Position numbers and translations under genes: made by a program. From Lachnospiraceae bacterium C7 (GTDB taxonomy: Bacteria; Bacillota; Clostridia; Lachnospirales; Lachnospiraceae), in the NCBI GenBank assembly GCA_900113385.1, contig FOPE01000006.1, positions 1 through 64,000 of the forward strand: a DNA stretch of 64,000 bases, given 5' to 3'. The notes beneath the pieces were generated by a model. The model did not search any database. It was not told the origin of the DNA and saw nothing but the letters and a program-made list of their open reading frames with translations. The number at the start of each line of letters is the position of its first letter. Position 1 is the stretch's first letter. Positions 4,856 to 61,217 of this stretch are shown piece by piece.

Positions 4856-6076
4856 ATGAGTAAAAATACAGAAGAAAATATAAATCGGAGTATGGATCAA
4901 AATATTGAAAAAATATCAGAAAAATACATGGAAAGAGCCATAGAACTTGCAAAAAAAGGTAAAGGAGCGGTTAATCCTAATCCTTTAGTAGGGGCTGTAA
5001 TAGTGAAAAAAGGAAGAATTATAGGAGAAGGATATCATCAAAAATATGGTGAATTTCATGCAGAAAGAAATGCATTTGCGTCGTTAAAAGAAAGTGCAGA
5101 AGGTGCAACACTGTATGTTACATTATCTCCTTGTTGCCATCATGGAAAACAGCCACCTTGTACAGATGCAATAATAGAAAACAAAATTAAAAAAGTTGTC
5201 ATAGGTTCCTTTGATCCAAATCCATTAGTAGGAAAGAAAAGTGTTGAAACTTTAAAAAAAGCAGGAATAGAAGTAGTTGAAGGCTTTTTAAAGGAAAAAT
5301 GTGATAGTTTAAATGACGTATTTTTTAAATATATTACTAAAAAAAGACCTTATGTTGTTATGAAATATGCTATGACTTTAGATGGAAAAATAGCCACAAA
5401 AACAGGTGAGTCTAAATGGATTAGTGGAGAAAAATCAAGGGCTTATGTTCATAAATTAAGAAATAAATACAAGGGAATAATGGTAGGAATAGGAACTGTT
5501 TTAGCAGATAATCCAATTTTAAATTGCAGACTGAAAAATCAAAAAGTTAGAAATCCTATAAGAATTATTTGTGATTCAAAGCTTCAAATTCCACTTGATT
5601 GCAATATTGTAAAAACAGCAAAAGAACAAGAAACAATAATAGCTTTTGCAAATGATAAATTGCCAGAAGGCTGGATAGTAAATAAAAAAAATGAAGAAAA
5701 TAAAGGAGAAAATAAAGAAGAAATTATAAAAGAAAAAATTTCTTCGTTACAAGAAAAAGGTATTAGACTAATAAATCTTTTTTCTGAAAAAGGGAAGATA
5801 GATTTAGTAAAACTGATGCAATATCTGGCAGATGATGGGATTGATGGAATTTTATTAGAAGGTGGAGGAACATTAAATGATAGCGCAATGGCAAGTAATA
5901 TAGTTGATGAGATAGTAGCCTTTGTAGCTCCTAAAATTTTTGGAGGAAAGAGTTTAAGTCCCGTTATTGGAGAAGGAGTAGAAAAAGTCTCCCAGGCTTA
6001 TCCTTTAGAATTAAAAGAAATTCAACAAGTAGGAGAAGATTTAAAGATTTCATATAAAGTAAAAAATAATATGTGA
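4856..6076 (+). CDS. ribD: Bifunctional diaminohydroxyphosphoribosylaminopyrimidine deaminase / reductase
   Basis: Catalyses the second and third steps from GTP in riboflavin synthesis. The deaminase half (about residues 20-165) has the zinc motif HAERNA near residue 68 and PCCHHGKQPPC near 92-102. The reductase half follows (MKYAMTLDGKIATKTGESKW; GTVLADNP; LLEGGGTLNDS). At 406 residues it is longer than the usual ~360: it has a ~20-residue charged N-terminal extension and a Lys/Glu/Asn-rich insert near residues 275-305. AAGGAG at 4846-4851 supports the ATG. First gene of the rib operon, under the FMN riboswitch. Confidence 0.96.
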   Translation: MSKNTEENINRSMDQNIEKISEKYMERAIELAKKGKGAVNPNPLVGAVIVKKGRIIGEGYHQKYGEFHAERNAFASLKESAEGATLYVTLSPCCHHGKQPPCTDAIIENKIKKVVIGSFDPNPLVGKKSVETLKKAGIEVVEGFLKEKCDSLNDVFFKYITKKRPYVVMKYAMTLDGKIATKTGESKWISGEKSRAYVHKLRNKYKGIMVGIGTVLADNPILNCRLKNQKVRNPIRIICDSKLQIPLDCNIVKTAKEQETIIAFANDKLPEGWIVNKKNEENKGENKEEIIKEKISSLQEKGIRLINLFSEKGKIDLVKLMQYLADDGIDGILLEGGGTLNDSAMASNIVDEIVAFVAPKIFGGKSLSPVIGEGVEKVSQAYPLELKEIQQVGEDLKISYKVKNNM

Positions 6077-6171
6077 AATCAAAATATAATCAAAATAAAA
6101 GCATAATGCAAACAGATAATGGAAAATTTTAAATAGAAAATAAAATTACAACAAGGATAGGAGGTTATGTT

Positions 6172-6822
6172 GTGTTTACAGGAATTATAGAAGAGATAGG
6201 CAAAATTAAAAATATTATTTCTAACGGTAAAAATATGTTGTTAGAAATAGAAGCCCAAAAAGTTCTAGAAGGCACGAAAGTTGGGAATAGTATAGCTGTC
6301 AATGGAGTATGTCTTACAGTAACTAAAATGTCAAAGAAAAGTTTTTTGGCAGATGTTATGGCAGAGACAATGCGAAGAACAGCATTCAAAGAATTAAAAA
6401 AGAATAGTTGCGTAAATTTAGAAAGAGCAATGTTAGCTAATGGACGATTTGGTGGGCATATAGTTTCAGGCCATATAGATGGAACAGGAATTATAGAAAA
6501 GGTACAGCAAGAAGGCAATGCAAAATGGATTTATATTTCAACAGATGAAAAAATTTTAGAGGGAATTGTTGAAAAAGGATCCATTGCAATAGATGGAATT
6601 AGTCTGACAGTTGCATATTTAGATGAAAAAAAATTTGCAGTATCCATAATTCCACATACTCAAGAAGAAACCACTCTTCTAATGAAAAATACAAAATCAA
6701 TAGTTAATTTGGAAAATGATGTTGTAGGAAAATACATAAAAAGATTTATCGAAAAAAAGGAGAGTAAAAAGGAAGCAAAGTCAAATATCACATTAGAATT
6801 TTTACAAGAAAATGGATTTTAA
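6172..6822 (+). CDS. ribE: Riboflavin synthase alpha chain
   Basis: Dismutates two 6,7-dimethyl-8-ribityllumazine molecules to riboflavin. The protein has the duplicated lumazine-binding fold: repeat 1 from the conserved N-terminus MFTGIIEEIG and repeat 2 from about residue 98 (HIVSGHIDGTG). The initiator is GTG at 6172, placed by AGGAGG at 6159-6164; an ATG at 6167 is out of frame. At 216 residues it matches the family, with a short Lys-rich C-terminal tail. Second gene of the operon. Confidence 0.96.
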   Translation: MFTGIIEEIGKIKNIISNGKNMLLEIEAQKVLEGTKVGNSIAVNGVCLTVTKMSKKSFLADVMAETMRRTAFKELKKNSCVNLERAMLANGRFGGHIVSGHIDGTGIIEKVQQEGNAKWIYISTDEKILEGIVEKGSIAIDGISLTVAYLDEKKFAVSIIPHTQEETTLLMKNTKSIVNLENDVVGKYIKRFIEKKESKKEAKSNITLEFLQENGF

Positions 6823-6936: not shown

Positions 6937-8160
6937 ATGAAAACTCAAGAAAAAATTCATAACACAGTAGAGGAGGCTCTAGAGGATTTAAGAAATGGAA
7001 AGGTAGTTTTAGTATCTGATAATCCAGATAGAGAAAATGAAGGAGATTTAATTTGTGCAGCAGAATTTGCAACACAGGAAAATATTAATTTTATGGCAAA
7101 AGAGGCAAAAGGTCTAATTTGTACACCAATGAGTAGTGAAATCGCTATGAAATTAGGGTTATCTTCAATGGTTGCTGAGAACACAGACAATCATCATACA
7201 GCTTTTACCGTTTCAGTAGATCATGTAGATACAACCACTGGAATTTCAGCAAAAGAAAGAGCATATACAATCAGAAAGTGTGCCTCGGAAGATTCAAAAC
7301 CAGAAGATTTTAGACGACCTGGACATACTTTTCCATTAATTTCAAAAAAAGGTGGAGTGCTAGAAAGAAATGGTCATACAGAAGCAACAACAGATTTAAT
7401 GAGACTTGCAGGATTAAAAGAATGTGGGGTGTGTTGTGAAGTAATGGATGAAGATGGAACGATGATGCGCAAAGATAATTTAGTAAAATTTGCCCAAAAA
7501 CACGATTTGACTTTCATTACAATATCTGATTTGCAAGATTACTGTAGAATTCATGACAAACACGTTATATGTGAGGCAAAAGCAAAACTTCCTAGTAAAT
7601 TTGGAAACTTTATGATGTATGGATATGTTAATGATATTACAAAAGAACATCATGTAGCCATCATTAAAGGCGACATAGGAGATGGAGAAAATGTTTTAAC
7701 ACGAGTGCATTCAGAGTGTTTGACAGGTGATGCATTTGGATCATTAAGATGTGATTGTGGAAAACAACTTCAGACAGCTCTTGAAATGATTGAAAAAGAA
7801 GGACGAGGAATTGTCTTATATATGAGACAAGAAGGACGAGGAATCGGATTAATTAATAAAATAAAAGCATATGCATTACAAGAAGAGGGCTACGACACAG
7901 TTGAGGCAAATGTAAAACTTGGTTTTGCCCCAGATTTACGTGAATACTGGGTAGGAGCACAAATATTAAAAGATTTGGGCGTTAAATCAATAGATTTAAT
8001 GACTAACAATCCAGACAAAGTTTATGGTTTAGAAGGCTTTGGAATAGAAATAAAAAAACGTGTTCCACTCGAAATTAAACCACAAAAATTTGATGCATTT
8101 TATCTAAAAACTAAGAAGGAAAAAATGGGACATATTTTTAAAGAAATAGTTCTAGATTAA
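6937..8160 (+). CDS. ribBA: 3,4-dihydroxy-2-butanone-4-phosphate synthase / GTP cyclohydrolase II
   Basis: A fusion supplying both substrates of the pathway. Residues 1 to ~205 are the RibB half ([33 protein letters not shown]). Residues ~206-407 are GTP cyclohydrolase II, with the zinc cluster [17 protein letters not shown] near 259-275 and the [14 protein letters not shown]-binding segment. AAGGAGAAAGG precedes the ATG. Third gene of the rib operon. The operon lacks an obvious riboflavin transporter. Confidence 0.97.
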
Positions 8161-8206
8161 GGCAAATAGATAAAAATTCAAAGAAACAATTTAAAGGAGA
8201 ATAATT

Positions 8207-8680
8207 ATGAGAGAAATCAAAGTGTTAGAAGGAAAAGTAGTTGCACCAGAAGGAATGAAAGTAGCCATTGTGGCTTCAAGATTCAATGAGATTATTGTAA
8301 ACAAGTTGTTAGGAGGAGCTGTTGATGGACTAGTTAGACATGGTGTAGAGGAAGAAAATATTGTAGCAACATGGGTGCCAGGAGCATTTGAAATCCCTGT
8401 AATAGCAAGAAAATTAGCTGAATCAAAAAAATATGATGCAGTTATATGTGTAGGTGCAGTTATTAGAGGAGATACAACACATTATGATTATGTATGTAAC
8501 GAGGTGTCAAAAGGAGTAGCACAGGTAGGATTAAATACAGGTGTTCCAACATTATTTGGAATTGTAACAACAGAAAATGTCGAACAAGCAATTCTACGAG
8601 CAGGAAGTAAAGCAGGAAATAAGGGATATGACTGTGCTTTATCTGCAATTGAAATGGTTAATTTGATTAAACAAATTTAA
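8207..8680 (+). CDS. ribH: 6,7-dimethyl-8-ribityllumazine synthase
   Basis: Condenses dihydroxybutanone phosphate with the aminopyrimidine to make lumazine; it forms icosahedral or pentameric shells in other bacteria. Conserved blocks seen: [43 protein letters not shown] and FGIVTTEN. The 157-residue length is normal. AAAGGAG precedes the ATG. Last gene of the rib operon, closed by a strong terminator. Confidence 0.97.
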
Positions 8681-8724
8681 GAAGAAAAATTTAGATAATT
8701 GATAAAAATATTTCCTTAAATGAG

Positions 8725-8761
8725 AAAAAACGCTATTCAGATAAAAGGATAGCGTTTTTTT
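8725..8761 (+). terminator. rib operon terminator
   Basis: AAAAAACGCTAT pairs with ATAGCGTTTTTTT, ending the ribD-E-BA-H transcript. Confidence 0.88.
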
Positions 8762-8772
8762 ACTTTACTATA

Positions 8773-8801
8773 TTGGAATAAAAAAATAAATGTGATAAAA
8801 T
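8773..8801 (+). promoter_or_regulatory. Promoter of the cation-efflux gene
   Basis: TTGGAA (8773-8778), 17 bp, TAAAAT (8796-8801), about 45 bases before the gene. Confidence 0.45.
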
Positions 8802-8847
8802 TATGAGAGACTAACTAAATTGTGTTTTTTATATTTAGGAGGAAAAT

Positions 8848-9765
8848 TTGAGTAAACCCATTAATAATAAAGAAAAGGTAGAAAAGATGGTATTGCGAAT
8901 TTCGTTCATAGGAAGTGCAGTACTCTCTGTTTCAGAAATTGTTATGGCCATTATTTTAGGGTCATACACAGTGCTAATGGATGGAATTTTTGATACTGCT
9001 GAACTTGCAATGATGGGCCCGTTACTTATATTAGTACCACTTTTATACAAACCAGTTTCAGAAAAAAGACCCTATGGTTATGCACAAGTAGAGTCACTTT
9101 TTTTACTAATCAAATATGGAATACTGTTTACAATTACAGTTGCAATGATTAGCACAAATATACATATTATTTATCAAGGCGGACATAAAGTTAGTGCCTC
9201 GAATATCGCAGGATATGAAATATTCCTTGGAATAGGTAGCATAATAATGTATGTTTGGCTTAAATTTTTAAGCGAAAAGTATGCATCACCTACTATAAAA
9301 TCAGAAATTTATATGTGGAAAACAGATATAGTTGGAAGTATTGGTATTTCGGTTACCTTTTTATTTCAAGCTATATTCGGAGAAACTTACCTTAAATTTT
9401 TAAGCTCGTATATAGACTCAATAGTTGCTATAACTTTATCAGTGTTTTTACTAAAAGAGCCAGTAGTAGTAATGCTGCGTGGCTTTAAAAAACTTGTGCT
9501 TTTTGCACCACCAAAAGAAACTATGGATAGAATAAGAAGTGTGGTAGATAAATCCTTAGAAGAGTATCCCTACGAAATCGCCTTTTTAGATGTTATTCAA
9601 ACAGGACGAAAAACATGGATAGAAGTTTACTTACAGGTAAAAGGTGACAATAAAGTTATAAATTTAGAGCAGTGGGGAGAAATTAGGACAAATATAAAAT
9701 CAAAATTAAAGTATGACTTTGATCAGTTATATGTAGAACTGATTCCAGATATACCAGAAAAATAG
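8848..9765 (+). CDS. Cation diffusion facilitator family transporter
   Basis: A 305-residue membrane protein with six probable transmembrane helices and a cytoplasmic C-terminal domain (from about residue 215), as in proton-coupled divalent metal exporters. Metal-site residues appear as MDGIFDTAE in helix 2 (a DxxxD pair) and KTDIVGS in helix 5. The helix 5 motif lacks the usual histidine, so the metal cannot be predicted. The start is TTG at 8848, set by AGGAGG at 8837-8842. It has its own promoter and is followed by pepF after a 46-bp gap. Confidence 0.85.
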   Translation: MSKPINNKEKVEKMVLRISFIGSAVLSVSEIVMAIILGSYTVLMDGIFDTAELAMMGPLLILVPLLYKPVSEKRPYGYAQVESLFLLIKYGILFTITVAMISTNIHIIYQGGHKVSASNIAGYEIFLGIGSIIMYVWLKFLSEKYASPTIKSEIYMWKTDIVGSIGISVTFLFQAIFGETYLKFLSSYIDSIVAITLSVFLLKEPVVVMLRGFKKLVLFAPPKETMDRIRSVVDKSLEEYPYEIAFLDVIQTGRKTWIEVYLQVKGDNKVINLEQWGEIRTNIKSKLKYDFDQLYVELIPDIPEK

Positions 9766-55202: not shown

Positions 55203-55262
55203 AAAGAGCCTAGGCTAGTGGTTTTTGAGGTTTTCTCATTTGCTAGTCCAAGCTCTTTTTTA
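55203..55262 (+). terminator. dapA-dapB terminator
   Basis: AAAGAGC...CTAG pairs with CTAG...GCTCTTTTTT, a long hairpin. Confidence 0.82.
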
Positions 55263-55298: not shown

Positions 55299-55327
55299 TT
55301 GCTATGAAAAAAGACTTATGATATACT
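55299..55327 (+). promoter_or_regulatory. pyr operon promoter
   Basis: TTGCTA (55299-55304), 17 bp, TATACT (55322-55327), giving a leader of about 100 nt. I see no clear PyrR-binding loop or attenuator in it. Confidence 0.6.
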
Positions 55328-55439: not shown

Positions 55440-56762
55440 ATGACAATACTTATAAAGAATGGTAGGGTAATTAATCCTGCAACAAATCTAGATGAAATAA
55501 AAGATGTTTTAATTATAGGGGAAAAAGTTGAAAAAATAGCAAATAATATTGATGAGAATGGCGTTGATAAAGTAATAGATGCTACTGATTGCTTAGTTAT
55601 GCCAGGTTTTATAGATATGAATTCGAATCTAAGGGATCCAGGTCCTGAAGAAGACGGTACTATTATGACAGAGATGGCAGCAGCAGCTCATGGTGGATAT
55701 ACAACAGTACTTGCAATGCCTAATACACATCCAGTTGTTGATAATCCTGATGCAGTAAACTATGTTCATAATAAGGCAAAAGCTGGAAATTGTATAAATG
55801 TTTTACAAGTAGGAGCTTTAACAAAAGGCGAAAAAGGTGAAGAACTTTGTGATTTTGAAGGCATGAAAAAAGTAGGAGTTAAAGCTTTATGTGAAGCCGG
55901 AAAATCAATTAGAGATACAAATATATTTTATAATGCATTAAAAAAGGCAAAAGATTTAGATTTAGTTGTTTTAGATCATTGCCAAGATACATATTTAGAC
56001 CAAGATGGTGTTATGAATGATGACGAAAACGCTAAAAACATGGATATGCCAGTGCTTTCTAATACAGTGGAAGACGTTATTATAGCAAGGGACTTAATGC
56101 TTGCACACAAAGCAAATGCAAAACTTCATTTATGTCACTGTTCTACACATGGTTCAGTGAAAATGCTTGAGATTGCAAAAGAAATTGGTATTGATGTTAC
56201 AGCAGAAGTTACACCACATCATTTTACTTTAACATCAGATGATATTAAGGAGTTTATTCCAATTCCAGAAAATGGAATTATGATTCCACATGATACAGAT
56301 GCTGATACAGCATTTAAGGTTAATCCACCACTTAGAACACAAAAGGATAAGGAAGAACTTATAAAAGCATTAAAAGAAGGTACAATTGATGTAATTGCAA
56401 CAAATCATGAACCACGTACATTTGATGAAAAGAATACATCAATGAGATATGCACCTTTTGGAATAGTTGGTTTTGAGACAACGGCCGCTATTACATACAC
56501 AGAGTTAGTTTTGAAGGATGTACTTACACCAATGCAAATGGCAGAAAAATTAAGTTACAATCCAGCAAAGATTATTGGAATAGATAAAGGTGATATAAGT
56601 GAAGGAAAAACTGCAGATGTAGTTATTTTTGATACAAGTCACCAATATAAAATTGATAAAAACACATTTCTTTCAAAAGGGAAAAACACACCATTTCAGG
56701 GACGTGAAGTTACAGGTAGCGTAAAGACTACTATATGTGGAGGAAAAGTTGTATTTGAATGA
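55440..56762 (+). CDS. pyrC: Dihydroorotase homologue lacking metal ligands (probable pseudo-dihydroorotase)
   Basis: 440 residues from ATG 55440 (GGGGGAAG ahead; ATG 55422 also in frame) with the dihydroorotase fold: ILIKNGRVINPATNLDEIK, VMPGFIDMN, TVLAMPNTHPVVDNP, EVTPHHFTLTSDDI. The HxH metal pair is replaced by Asn61-Ser-Asn63 (NSNLRDPG). The bridging Asp near 153 is Ala (ALCEAGKS). The catalytic Asp is Asn322 (IATNHEPRT). His180 and the HLCHCST histidines remain. Active bacterial dihydroorotases keep the missing residues, so this protein is probably inactive and perhaps structural, as the inactive PyrC' partner of aspartate transcarbamoylase is in some bacteria. It heads the pyr operon. 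Confidence 0.85.
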   Translation: MTILIKNGRVINPATNLDEIKDVLIIGEKVEKIANNIDENGVDKVIDATDCLVMPGFIDMNSNLRDPGPEEDGTIMTEMAAAAHGGYTTVLAMPNTHPVVDNPDAVNYVHNKAKAGNCINVLQVGALTKGEKGEELCDFEGMKKVGVKALCEAGKSIRDTNIFYNALKKAKDLDLVVLDHCQDTYLDQDGVMNDDENAKNMDMPVLSNTVEDVIIARDLMLAHKANAKLHLCHCSTHGSVKMLEIAKEIGIDVTAEVTPHHFTLTSDDIKEFIPIPENGIMIPHDTDADTAFKVNPPLRTQKDKEELIKALKEGTIDVIATNHEPRTFDEKNTSMRYAPFGIVGFETTAAITYTELVLKDVLTPMQMAEKLSYNPAKIIGIDKGDISEGKTADVVIFDTSHQYKIDKNTFLSKGKNTPFQGREVTGSVKTTICGGKVVFE

Positions 56763-56767
56763 TAAAT

Positions 56768-56813
56768 AAGCAGGCTACTCCAAAAGAGTGATTTTTTTGA
56801 AGAGCCTGCTTTA
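56768..56813 (+). terminator. Hairpin between pyrC-like gene and pyrF
   Basis: AAGCAGGCT and AGCCTGCTT pair, followed by TAAAT. The T run is poor, so it may only partly stop transcription. Confidence 0.65.
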
Positions 56814-56852: not shown

Positions 56853-57779
56853 ATGATTAACAAGCTTATTGACAAAATTAAAAAAACAGATGCACCAATA
56901 GTTGTAGGATTAGATCCTATGCTTGATTATGTACCATCATGTATTACTAAAAAGGCGTTTAGCGAATATGGTGAAACATTAGAGGGGGCAGCAGAAGCAA
57001 TTTGGCAATATAATAAAGCTATTATTGATGCCACATATGATATTATTCCAGCGGTTAAGCCACAGATTGCAATGTATGAGCAGTTTGGTGTAGAAGGAAT
57101 GAAAGTCTTTAAAAAGACAGTTGACTATTGTCATGAAAAGGACCTTGTTGTCATCGGTGATGTAAAAAGAGGCGATATTGGTTCAACATCTAAAGCTTAT
57201 GCAGTTGGTCATTTAGGAAAAGTGACAGTAGGAAATAATAAAATTAGCCCATTTAACGAGGACTTTGCAACAGTAAATCCATATCTAGGATCAGATGGAA
57301 TTACACCATTTCTTGATATTTGTAAAGAGGAGAAAAAAGGAATCTTTATTTTAGTAAAAACATCTAACCCTTCTAGCGGAGAATTCCAAGACAGATTAAT
57401 TGATGACAAACCATTATATGAACATGTAGGCGAAAAAGTTGCCCAGTGGGGAAGCCAATGCATGGGTGATGAATATAGTTATGTTGGAGCCGTAGTAGGA
57501 GCAACTTATCCAGAAATGGGAGCAGCTCTTAGAAAAGTTATGCCAAAAAGTATGATTTTAGTACCAGGCTATGGAGCACAAGGTGGAAAAGCAAAAGATT
57601 TAAAATGCTTCTTCAATGAGGATGGTCTTGGAGCTATTATTAATTCTTCTCGTGGAATAATTTGTGCATACAAGAAGGAGCAGTACATTGAAAAAGGTAT
57701 AACAGAAGAGAATTTTGCAGATGCATCAAGAATGGCAGTAAAGGATATGATTGAAGATATTAATGGAGCAATTAAATAA
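56853..57779 (+). CDS. pyrF: Orotidine-5'-phosphate decarboxylase, type 2
   Basis: Makes UMP. 308 residues, the longer type 2 form. Seen: VVGLDPMLDYVPSC, AVKPQIAMYEQFG, the catalytic DVKRGDIGSTSKAYA, VNPYLGSDGITPF and LVPGYGAQGG. Ribosome site AGAGAGGAA precedes the ATG. Second pyr gene, 77 bases before pyrK. Confidence 0.96.
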   Translation: MINKLIDKIKKTDAPIVVGLDPMLDYVPSCITKKAFSEYGETLEGAAEAIWQYNKAIIDATYDIIPAVKPQIAMYEQFGVEGMKVFKKTVDYCHEKDLVVIGDVKRGDIGSTSKAYAVGHLGKVTVGNNKISPFNEDFATVNPYLGSDGITPFLDICKEEKKGIFILVKTSNPSSGEFQDRLIDDKPLYEHVGEKVAQWGSQCMGDEYSYVGAVVGATYPEMGAALRKVMPKSMILVPGYGAQGGKAKDLKCFFNEDGLGAIINSSRGIICAYKKEQYIEKGITEENFADASRMAVKDMIEDINGAIK

Positions 57780-57856: not shown

Positions 57857-58642
57857 ATGTCGGAGATTTTTAGAGAGCAGGTAAAAATTTTATCTAATGA
57901 AAAACTTTCAGCAGGCGTATATAGTTTAGAATTAGAGACAAAAAATATAGCAAAAAATGCTAAAGCAGGTCAGTTTGTAACAGTTTACTGTAAAGATTCT
58001 AGTCGCTTGTTGCCAAGACCTATAAGCCTATGTGAAATTGATTCGAAAAAAAATACAATTCGTTTAGTGTTTAGAACAGTAGGAGCAGGAACTAAGGAAC
58101 TTGCAGATTATAAAGCAGGTGAAGAACTTACTGTTATGGGACCATTAGGAAATGGCTATGATTTAGATAAGTTTGATGCAAATAAAAAAGCGTTAATTAT
58201 TGGTGGAGGAATAGGAATACCTCCTATGCTTCAAGTGGCAAAGGACGCAAAATGCCAAAAAGAAATTGTAGCTGGTTATAGAAACAAAAATGAATTGTTT
58301 TTATATAAGGACTTAGAAGCTGTAGCTAAGGTGCATGTGGCTACAGATGATGGCAGTTTTGAAACAAAGGGAACAGTAATTGATGCAATAAAAGAAAAAA
58401 GTCTTCAGGCAGATGTTGTATTTGCATGTGGTCCTATGCCAATGCTAAAAGCCTTAAAAATGTATTGTGAAAATAATAATATAGAGTGTTACATTTCATT
58501 AGAAGAGCGTATGGCTTGTGGAATAGGCGCATGTCTAGGCTGTGTAACAAAAACAAAGAAAAAAGATCATCATTTAAATGTAAATAATACTAGAATTTGT
58601 ACAGAAGGACCAGTTTTTGATGCTAGGGAGGTAGAAATATAA
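57857..58642 (+). CDS. pyrK: Dihydroorotate dehydrogenase electron-transfer subunit
   Basis: 261 residues. The FAD domain has RLLPRPISLCEID, the NAD domain has GGGIGIPPMLQVAK and FACGPMPML, and the C-terminal 2Fe-2S cluster ligands are in ERMACGIGACLGCV and a later Cys (TRICTEG). It passes electrons from PyrD to NAD. Its stop TAA overlaps the pyrD ATG by one base (TAATG), so translation is coupled. AAAGGAG precedes the ATG. Confidence 0.97.
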   Translation: MSEIFREQVKILSNEKLSAGVYSLELETKNIAKNAKAGQFVTVYCKDSSRLLPRPISLCEIDSKKNTIRLVFRTVGAGTKELADYKAGEELTVMGPLGNGYDLDKFDANKKALIIGGGIGIPPMLQVAKDAKCQKEIVAGYRNKNELFLYKDLEAVAKVHVATDDGSFETKGTVIDAIKEKSLQADVVFACGPMPMLKALKMYCENNNIECYISLEERMACGIGACLGCVTKTKKKDHHLNVNNTRICTEGPVFDAREVEI

Positions 58643-59544
58643 TGAATACAAGTGTAGATTTTTGCGGCAAAATTTTTAAAAATCCTGTAATTACAGCATC
58701 AGGAACCTTTGGCTCAGGTCAAGAATATTCACAATTTGTAGATTTAAATAAACTAGGTGGAGTTGTAACAAAAGGTGTTGCAAATGTACCATGGGAAGGA
58801 AACCCAACACCTAGAGTAGCTGAAGTATATGGCGGAATGCTTAATGCAGTTGGTTTACAAAATCCAGGCATAGAAACTTTTTGTAATAGAGATATTCCAT
58901 TTTTACAGAAATATGATACTAATATTATTGTAAATGTGTGCGGTCATACAAAACAAGAATATCTTGATGTAGTAGAACGTTTACAACAAGAAGACGTAGA
59001 TATTTTAGAGATAAATATTTCATGCCCAAACGTTACAGCTGGTGGACTTTCCTTTGGTCAAGATCCAAAAGGAGTAGAGGAAATTACAAAGGCGATTAAA
59101 AAAATAGCAAAACAACCTGTTGTAATGAAACTTACTCCAAATGTAACAGATATCAAGGAAATCGCAAAGGCTGCTGAAGCAGGCGGGGCAGATGGAATCT
59201 CACTTATCAATACACTAACAGGAATGAAAATTGACATAAATAGAAGAAGCTTTGTGTTAGCTAATAAAACTGGCGGAATGAGTGGCCCTGCTATTCATCC
59301 AATAGCTGTAAGAATGGTGTATGAAGCTTCACATGCTGTAAATATTCCAGTTCTTGGTATGGGAGGAATAATGAATGCCGATGATGCAATTGAAATGATT
59401 TTAGCAGGAGCATCATTAGTGTCAATAGGAACAGCCAATTTCGTAGATCCAACTACAACAGTTAAAGTGGTAGAGGGAATAGAAGAATACATGAGAAAAT
59501 ATAATGTATCTGACATAAAGGAATTAGTTGGAGCTGTAAGATAA
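58642..59544 (+). CDS. pyrD: Dihydroorotate dehydrogenase, class 1B catalytic subunit
   Basis: Oxidises dihydroorotate to orotate with FMN. 300 residues. Seen: NPVITASGTFGSGQEYSQF, NAVGLQNPGIETF, the active-site Cys in ISCPNVTAGGLSFGQ, KLTPNVTDI and GMGGIMNADDAIEMI. The Cys (rather than Ser) and the adjoining pyrK identify the NAD-linked class 1B enzyme. The ribosome site lies in the end of pyrK (GGGAGG). Confidence 0.97.
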   Translation: MNTSVDFCGKIFKNPVITASGTFGSGQEYSQFVDLNKLGGVVTKGVANVPWEGNPTPRVAEVYGGMLNAVGLQNPGIETFCNRDIPFLQKYDTNIIVNVCGHTKQEYLDVVERLQQEDVDILEINISCPNVTAGGLSFGQDPKGVEEITKAIKKIAKQPVVMKLTPNVTDIKEIAKAAEAGGADGISLINTLTGMKIDINRRSFVLANKTGGMSGPAIHPIAVRMVYEASHAVNIPVLGMGGIMNADDAIEMILAGASLVSIGTANFVDPTTTVKVVEGIEEYMRKYNVSDIKELVGAVR

Positions 59545-59627: not shown

Positions 59628-59696
59628 GTAAAAACAATACTAAAGCATCTCTAAAAAGCCGATAAAAAAGTATAAAGGTTTAAGGAGGTGCTTTTT

Positions 59697-60449
59697 GTGT
59701 TTAAGGATATTATACGTGGTTTCTTTAATATAACAGAGGACGTGGCAGATCATAATGAAATAAGAGATAGAATTTTATCAGGGGGAAAAGTAACTGGCAC
59801 AAATATGTGTGTAATGGTGTGTGCCGTAATTATTGCGTCTGTGGGATTGAATACTGATTCAGTGGCGGTTATTATAGGCGCTATGCTTATTTCACCACTT
59901 ATGGGAAGTATATTAGCAATAGCCTATGGAACAGAATCAGCTAATGCAAGGCTTGCGGAAAAACATATTTTAGGATTATTATTTCAGATTAATATAAGTG
60001 TAGGAGCAGCAACTATATATTTTGCTTTGTCGCCTGTTAAAAGTGAAACAGAGCAAATTTTAGCTAGAACATCCCCAACATTATTTGATGTTTTAATTGC
60101 GATTGCAGGTGGAATAGCAGGGATAATTGGGCAAACAAGAAAAGATAAGGCCAATAATATTGTTCCAGGAGTTGCCATTGCAACAGCTCTTATGCCTCCA
60201 CTTTGCACCTGTGGATATGCAATAGCAAATGGAAAAATTAAAATGCTTTTAGAAGCAGCATATCTGTTTATAATTAATGCATATTTTATCTTTTTATCTG
60301 CAGCATTGATTTTATCAGTTTTAGAAGTTCCAAAAGTAAAAGAATTAACAGATGAACAGTGGTTAAGATTAAGACGAAGGATGATTAGAAATTCTATAAT
60401 CATTATAATTCCAAGTGTTTTTGCTTTATATAGTATACATATGAAATAG
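59697..60449 (+). CDS. DUF389 family membrane protein
   Basis: 250 residues from GTG 59697. AAGGAGG at 59682-59688 rules out the earlier in-frame GTG at 59688, which overlaps it. It has about six membrane helices with the DUF389 signature (VIIGAMLISPLMGSILAIAYG; PGVAIATALMPPLCTCGYAI). The function of the family is unknown. It lies between pyrD and pyrE in the same orientation. Confidence 0.88.
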   Translation: MFKDIIRGFFNITEDVADHNEIRDRILSGGKVTGTNMCVMVCAVIIASVGLNTDSVAVIIGAMLISPLMGSILAIAYGTESANARLAEKHILGLLFQINISVGAATIYFALSPVKSETEQILARTSPTLFDVLIAIAGGIAGIIGQTRKDKANNIVPGVAIATALMPPLCTCGYAIANGKIKMLLEAAYLFIINAYFIFLSAALILSVLEVPKVKELTDEQWLRLRRRMIRNSIIIIIPSVFALYSIHMK

Positions 60450-60539: not shown

Positions 60540-61217
60540 ATGGAAAGCTACAAGCAAGAGTTTATTGAATTTATGGTAGAATGCAACGTTTTAAAATTTG
60601 GAGATTTCACTTTAAAAAGTGGCAGAAAATCTCCTTTTTTTATGAATGCAGGAGCATATGTAACAGGTACTCAATTAATGAAATTAGGAGAGTATTATGC
60701 CACAGCTATTCATGAAAATTTCGGTGACGATTTTGACGTTTTATTCGGACCAGCTTATAAGGGAATTCCACTTTCTGTAGCAACAACTATCGCTTTTTCA
60801 AAATTATACGGCAAAGAGATTCGTTATTGTTCTAACAGAAAAGAAATCAAAGACCACGGTGATACAGGTATTTTACTTGGAAGTGATATTAAGGATGGAG
60901 ATAGAGTTGTTATTATTGAAGATGTTACTACATCAGGCAAATCTATCGAGGAGACTTTCCCAATTATCAAAGCACAAGGAGATGTAGAAATCAAAGGCCT
61001 TATGGTTTCATTAAATAGAATGGAAGTTGGCCTTGGGGGAGAAAAAAGTGCCCTTGATGAAATCCGTGAAAAATATGGATTCCCAGCTCATGCAATTGTT
61101 ACTATGAAAGAAGTTATGGAACATCTTTATAATAAAGAGTGCCAAGGAAAAATAGTAATTAACGATGAGGTTAAGGCTAATTTAGATAAATATTATGAGC
61201 AATATGGTTGCAAATAG
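60540..61217 (+). CDS. pyrE: Orotate phosphoribosyltransferase
   Basis: Joins orotate to PRPP. 225 residues. Seen: LKSGRKSPFFMNAGAYVTG, FGPAYKGIPLSVATTIAF, KDHGDTGILLGSDIKDGD and the PRPP loop VVIIEDVTTSGKSIEE. Ribosome site AGGAGG precedes the ATG. Last pyr gene here; pyrB/pyrI and carbamoyl-phosphate synthase are elsewhere. Confidence 0.97.
   Translation: MESYKQEFIEFMVECNVLKFGDFTLKSGRKSPFFMNAGAYVTGTQLMKLGEYYATAIHENFGDDFDVLFGPAYKGIPLSVATTIAFSKLYGKEIRYCSNRKEIKDHGDTGILLGSDIKDGDRVVIIEDVTTSGKSIEETFPIIKAQGDVEIKGLMVSLNRMEVGLGGEKSALDEIREKYGFPAHAIVTMKEVMEHLYNKECQGKIVINDEVKANLDKYYEQYGCK

Follow-up and report, generated by a model that had tools for sequence, protein, structure and literature searches.

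A pyrimidine-operon dihydroorotase homologue lacking most metal ligands is probably kept as a non-catalytic protein in two Lachnospiraceae species that encode an intact second dihydroorotase

The pyrimidine operon of Lachnospiraceae bacterium C7 raises the question of why a gene in the place of a dihydroorotase (DHOase) gene keeps an open frame when its product has lost most of the residues that would hold the catalytic metals. This gene, pyrC', lies in a stretch of 64,000 nucleotides (the window) in the local order dapA, dapB, pyrC', pyrF, pyrK, pyrD, a DUF389-like gene and pyrE (Table 1; dapA and dapB named by eye). The frame is full-length, encoding 440 aa from an ATG that is preceded by a strong ribosome-binding site (GGGGGAAG), and the product matches the DHOase model TIGR00857 (pyrC_multi) at 368 bits against a cut-off of 279.05, covering positions 6-409 of 412. 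Numbered from this ATG, the metal-ligand positions read N61, N63, A153, H180, H233 and N322, and the active-site changes are H61N, V62S, H63N, D153A, D322N and H326R; H180 and H233 are unchanged, as are R65, N95, N295 and H323 on the substrate side, the roles of all these positions being those of class I DHOases. An active class I enzyme requires HxH, Asp, His, His and Asp as metal ligands, and this set is absent from pyrC', in which HxH has become Asn-Ser-Asn (61-63). An earlier note on this DNA had reported the change of HxH to Asn-Ser-Asn, of the bridging Asp to Ala and of a further Asp to Asn, and these replacements are real, standing as N61-S62-N63, D153A and D322N in a full-length TIGR00857 protein.

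Table 1. Positions in the window of pyrC' and of the features around it.
Feature	Position	Strand	Evidence
Hairpin and T run 3' of dapB, probably terminating the dapA-dapB unit	55203..55262 (hairpin 55203-55258)	+	z -3.2
Promoter-like block (TTGCTA, 17 nt, TATACT, TG before) 5' of pyrC'	55299..55327	+	conservation against L. bovis
pyrC' (dead PyrC1 by its residues), class I dihydroorotase homologue	55440..56762	+	ORF, TIGR00857, residues, predicted model
Hairpin in the pyrC'-pyrF gap	56768..56811	+	z -3.7
pyrF, orotidine-5'-phosphate decarboxylase	56853..57779	+	TIGR02127 over cut-off
pyrK, dihydroorotate dehydrogenase electron transfer subunit	57857..58642	+	best model NF000799, under cut-off (243 of 314)
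pyrD, dihydroorotate dehydrogenase	58642..59544	+	NF005574 over cut-off
pyrE, orotate phosphoribosyltransferase	60540..61217	+	TIGR00336 over cut-off

The product is like class I DHOases (TIGR00857; 3mpg, 3d6n) in its predicted fold, length, operon place and over-cut-off profile score, and unlike them in that four of the six metal ligands are replaced. The AlphaFold2 model, built from eight input sequences, has a mean pLDDT of 80 and a pTM of 0.85 (mean pLDDT 43-64 in the remaining four models), with low-confidence stretches at 69-71, 183-206, 270-295 and 328-339. Its top structural match is the Aquifex DHOase 4bjh_A (Z 53.1, rmsd 2.2, 413 residues), other class I DHOases follow at Z 49-50, and the closest solved structures by sequence are 3mpg and 4yiw; the predicted model has the DHOase fold, a predicted fold not being proof of folding. 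The score of pyrC' is under the cut-off of every DHOase equivalog shown (best 424 of 575), as is that of the intact PyrC1 orthologue L062 (459 of 575), the sole intact orthologue tested, and NCBIfam equivalog cut-offs were therefore rejected as a means to tell dead from intact PyrC1. From its residues, pyrC' is expected to lack DHOase activity; ligand loss is not proof of activity loss, because activity is reported for a PyrC paralogue in which the zinc residues are not conserved (PMC2770081).

The catalytic step can be assigned to another gene. The genome of C7 (2.84 Mb, 91 contigs, 100% complete) holds two TIGR00857 matches, pyrC' on contig C62 and a second gene, PyrC2, on contig C52 (56690-57910, minus strand), whose product of 426 aa has all six metal ligands and is over the NCBIfam equivalog cut-off (638 against 576). 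The second, intact pyrC for which the earlier note advised a search is thus present. By eye, it lies between MEMO/AMMECR1-like and FUSC-like genes, apart from the other pyr genes. PyrC2 would be the working DHOase, and the pathway, for which the genome also encodes PyrF, PyrK, PyrD and PyrE, looks complete without pyrC' because an intact PyrC2, PyrB-PyrI and CarB are present. Since naming by profile (TIGR00857 over cut-off) calls both copies 'dihydroorotase', the catalytic step could be misplaced in annotation. Other amidohydrolases were rejected as the DHOase of this genome, the remaining four of its six PF01979 matches resembling non-DHOases by eye (two are NagA-like, one is like an adenine deaminase and one like SAH deaminase).

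Relatives were surveyed in a genus set of 62 genomes, in which TIGR00857 is matched at E up to 0.001 in 61 and over cut-off in 56. A full-length or near-full-length DHOase was read in 54 (that of G055 reaches the contig end), the others (G018, G020, G022, G025, G036, G039, G047, G048) yielding fragments or partial genes, or nothing at all. In 52 of these 54, no DHOase that was read lacks any of the six metal ligands, which argues that the ligand loss in pyrC' is not due to chance, and a dead copy occurs only in C7 and in Lachnobacterium bovis DSM 14045 (NCBI family Lachnospiraceae), so that dead copies are known from two genomes, one per species. The L. bovis operon copy is syntenic with pyrC' and reads D61, H63, T65, D95, A153, H180, R233, K295 and D322, its changes being H61D, R65T, N95D, D153A, H233R and N295K; the substrate-side residues R65, N95 and N295, present in C7, are all three lost. 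The question whether the same substitutions are conserved in relatives, raised in the earlier note, receives a divided answer, as the active site of L. bovis is also lost and D153A is common to both, but most of the exact changes differ. L. bovis likewise has a PyrC2 with intact ligands (624 against an equivalog cut-off of 576), and MEMO/AMMECR1-like and GHKL-like genes are close to PyrC2 in both species. Three further genomes (G008, G009 and G013) have PyrC2 and no pyrC adjoining pyrF, with pyrF directly after dapB in G009 and G013, so that PyrC1 has no role which is essential throughout the genus. G039 (L104) and G047 (L105) likewise have no pyrC adjoining pyrF, and at the search levels used they gave no match to PyrC2, absences that may reflect assembly gaps, as these genomes are 86 and 80% complete.

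Beyond the genus, no additional dead DHOase was found in the 20 regions read from 13 genomes, which came from a pool of 67 further genomes, out of 250 of the family, that each gave at least two matches at E up to 1e-60; three of these regions are the sole over-cut-off match of their genome. At least two over-cut-off matches occur in 11 genomes, the second copy in G252 (279.6 bits) lying outside the residue survey. Departures from the standard six ligand letters are seen in 11 of the 92 family ORFs read, namely the one in C7, two in L. bovis (one a partial copy), two truncated genes and six amidohydrolases, of which four have Glu at the bridging position and two a gap there. Cyclic amidohydrolases with Glu in place of the DHOase bridging Asp are seen in L068, L069, L070 and L113, and the first three adjoin a pyrD-like gene (29-31% identity). 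A literature search with mostly open-access coverage found no account of dead PyrC copies among these bacteria.

The two dead copies share one origin. After removal of nine truncated, duplicate or remote ORFs from the 92, a tree was built from the remaining 83 rows, and in it they form one clade (support 100/100, stem 0.59) within the operon-type PyrC1 group, and the PyrC2 rows form a separate group in which those of C7 and L. bovis are sister (99/93) to those of G009 and G013. The reference for residue changes was a set of 62 intact sequences of PyrC1 type, 49 of them belonging to the genus and 13 from outside, in which 103 columns are near-invariant. At these columns, C7 has changed at 18 and L. 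bovis at 20, with 11 changed in both; in a leave-one-out comparison, intact sequences depart at 0-9 columns, with a median of 0. At four of these columns, both dead copies carry the same derived residue (E73G, G78E, D153A and G205V), seen in none of the 62 intact orthologues, and the simplest reading of this sharing is that D153A and its companions predate the split of the two species, placing inactivation before it. The earlier claim that all changes affect the active site is overstated, as 11 of the 18 changed columns of C7 are no more than five positions away from one of the active-site residues considered and seven are farther away. Clustering of changed columns round active-site residues along the linear sequence is not significant in either species (for C7, p 0.06 at five residues and 0.18 at three).

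Since the split, the operon copy has changed in a way that speaks of continued constraint. Identity between C7 and L. bovis is 66% for pyrC', 74% for PyrC2, 81% for PyrF, 69% for PyrK and 84% for PyrD. In a regression over 210 pairs among 21 intact genomes with PyrF and PyrD distances as predictors (the fused G025 gene, L072, excluded), the dead pair differs by 34.2% as against 31.6% predicted, a gap smaller than the residual sd of 5.9. Of 42 comparisons between dead copies and intact orthologues, 41 give a distance above prediction, the mean excess being 6.9 points, a sign that the stem branch leading to the dead pair evolved faster. For pyrC' of the two species, NG86 gives dN 0.234 and dS 1.13, and in a pairwise maximum-likelihood (ML) codon fit omega = 1 is worse by 170.6 lnL; as t is at its bound for pyrC', pyrF and pyrD, only this rejection is used and no omega value, and ML dS is saturated in all four genes compared. 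Omegas of a branch-specific codon model were discarded, as saturation at synonymous sites and uneven GC3 (0.16-0.72 in pyrC1) drove its branch lengths towards the bound (t up to 20). When the dead pair is set beside 19 intact pairs at matched PyrF/K/D divergence, which overlap and so are not independent, overall agreement is 0.658 against an intact mean of 0.718 (0.588-0.784). By class of site, it is 0.777 against 0.991 (0.963-1.0) at near-invariant columns, 0.766 against 0.859 at high-conservation columns, 0.555 against 0.572 at middle columns and 0.506 against 0.347 (at most 0.5) at variable columns. Constraint has been lost chiefly at the columns where catalysis had imposed it, a flattened pattern that is also expected under partly relaxed selection.

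A decaying gene, left functionless after PyrC2 took over and heading for the loss seen in G008, G009 and G013, is an unlikely explanation of these data, though one that deserves serious weight; the frame would then be open either because too little time has passed since the loss or because selection removes broken frames from the operon. PyrC2-bearing relatives that lack PyrC1 beside pyrF are what decay would predict, as are the changes at near-invariant columns, mostly in different directions in the two species, the excess distances to intact orthologues and the flattening of constraint across site classes. Against this stand the four shared residues that place inactivation before the split, synonymous sites that have since become saturated while both frames stayed open, and a within-pair divergence inside the range of intact pairs. 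In a neutral simulation of 300 copies, which started from the C7 pyrC' gene with an assumed AT-rich composition, only 1.7% are free of stops at 0.1 substitutions per site and none of the 300 at 0.2, where the mean is 8.3 stops, so that neutral change yields many stops far sooner. With frames open in both species and omega = 1 rejected, neither the broken frame nor the unconstrained change of a pseudogene is found. On these observations, a pseudoenzyme that is being maintained is more likely than a gene in decay, though selection may be partly relaxed, and to this extent the operon copy looks as the earlier note proposed, that is, selected as a non-catalytic protein.

Signals for expression are found on the 5' side of the gene. 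The best-kept intergenic stretch in comparison with L. bovis, by eye, is a block before pyrC' (AATTGCTAT, AAAAAA and ACTTATGATATACT, with single differing letters between) that reads as a putative extended -10 promoter. A promoter-consensus scan of the region gave 40 sites as against 39.4 expected in shuffles, hence no excess, and because of this match it is solely the conservation between two species that carries the promoter reading. Both the ribosome-binding site and the promoter-like block are present in C7 and L. bovis alike, which suggests that pyrC' is expressed. The L. bovis counterpart of the hairpin after dapB is no better than shuffles (z 0.09). In the pyrC'-pyrF gap, L. bovis has a hairpin of z -3.7 and unrelated sequence (L041 7690-7800), and the gap hairpins of both species are without a clear T run. 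Maintenance of the frame for translational or operon reasons was considered and rejected, as a gap of 90 bp in C7 and of some 310 bp in L. bovis means that pyrC' and pyrF are not tightly coupled. The promoter of pyrC' may also serve pyrF in C7, since the short gap has scant space for a promoter of its own; such sharing would account for retention of the promoter, not for retention of the protein.

The explanation that we regard as probable, if well short of certain, is that of a displaced operon enzyme, in which catalysis moved to PyrC2 and PyrC1 was kept as a non-catalytic protein under purifying selection. In this scheme, PyrC1 would be the operon DHOase of the genus, inherited vertically, and the common ancestor with L. 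bovis would also have had PyrC2, a DHOase only distantly related to PyrC1, by which the catalytic step is now performed. PyrC1 would then have lost its bridging aspartate (D153A) along with other active-site residues, and the remaining site would have been worn down differently in each species afterwards. The protein would still be made, with purifying selection acting on fold and surface, and it would most likely act non-catalytically by binding another protein, the first candidate partners being the pyrimidine enzymes of the neighbouring genes or PyrC2. What speaks against a displaced and retained PyrC1, besides the three relatives without PyrC1 beside pyrF and the faster stem, is that the dead copies of C7 and L. 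bovis have no set of ligand-binding residues in common.

It is quite improbable that pyrC' has instead retained or gained a reaction independent of the two-metal site, for example as a metal-free or one-metal amidohydrolase. Such a reaction could draw on R65, N95, N295, H180, H233 and H323 in C7 and on H63, H180, D322 and D61 in L. bovis, and the ligand-poor paralogue mentioned above, from Pseudomonas, is reported as active (PMC2770081), but the retained residues differ between the species and leave a small common catalytic set.

The earlier note had also pointed to inactive PyrC' subunits that support aspartate transcarbamoylase (ATCase) in some bacteria. A role of this type, that of the class A2 PyrC' of Pseudomonas, for which the same family, the same kind of ligand loss and the best fit of the predicted model to the Aquifex DHOase from an ATCase complex (4bjh, 3d6n; Z 53, other DHOases 49-50) can be cited, is the least probable of the readings weighed here, because PyrI is present and three relatives manage without PyrC1. 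In C7, pyrB is on contig C23, outside the operon, with pyrI directly after it, and PyrI scores 100 bits against a PF01948 cut-off of 25; PyrI occurs in 58 of the 62 genus genomes, including G008, G009 and G013, and the pyrB-pyrI locus, which was read in G009 alone of these three (L083), is there 86 and 88% identical to that of C7. Of the features of a Pseudomonas-type PyrC', the dead DHOase homologue is found in C7 (by residues only), whereas an ATCase without a regulatory chain and a pyrB beside pyrC' are not. In class A2 enzymes, the DHO chain replaces the regulatory dimers (PMC7053772).

The known dead DHOases, the Pseudomonas pDHO of class A2, serve ATCase instead of regulatory dimers (PMC7053772; PMC4581275). 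The present protein is like Pseudomonas PyrC'/pDHO in being a class I DHOase homologue that is dead by its residues and is encoded among pyrimidine genes, a working DHOase presumably being encoded elsewhere. It differs in that pyrB is not linked to it but stands with pyrI, from which an E. coli-type ATCase with its own regulatory chain is expected, and in that dead copies were found in a single clade of two species. Another example is the pseudo-DHO domain of fungal Ura2-type proteins, which has the DHO fold without zinc ligands and substrate residues (PMC7053772); unlike this domain of a multifunctional protein, pyrC' is a free protein. The predicted pyrC' model also resembles the cyclic amidohydrolase fold of animal CRMP/DPYSL proteins (Z 38-40 for CRMP-5 and CRMP-2). 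These are non-catalytic proteins with cytoskeletal and signalling roles and, unlike pyrC', belong to animals and to the dihydropyrimidinase branch. A tentative, though by no means far-fetched, extension is that pyrC' represents a pseudo-dihydroorotase unconnected with class A2 ATCases, alongside an E. coli-type PyrB-PyrI and with a new non-catalytic role, for example in linking or regulating the pyrFKD enzymes or PyrC2. One genus offers a series, comprising a working operon enzyme, a replacement together with a dead maintained copy, and a lost operon copy, which allows one to ask when a displaced enzyme persists as a pseudoenzyme.

Several further observations concern the window and other genomes. 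A PyrR-type RNA leader was rejected, the Rfam matches over gathering score in the window being one FMN and one lysine riboswitch. The lysine riboswitch (RF00168, 53131-53302, 110 bits) is 5' of dapA-dapB, and the FMN riboswitch (RF00050, 4474-4587, 124 bits) is 5' of riboflavin-type genes named by eye. The membrane protein gene between pyrD and pyrE (59688-60449) matches TIGR00341 with 95.6 bits, just over the cut-off of 94.75. In G025 (contig C13, L072 3097-5820), a 907-aa frame runs from the end of dapB to the C-terminal two thirds of PyrC, with the HxH part absent, and stems either from a deletion that fused the two genes or from misassembly of this 75% complete genome. In G069, from another genus, a PyrC1-type (5209-6531) and a PyrC2-type (7554-8864) DHOase lie about 1 kb apart (L107), both with all six ligands.
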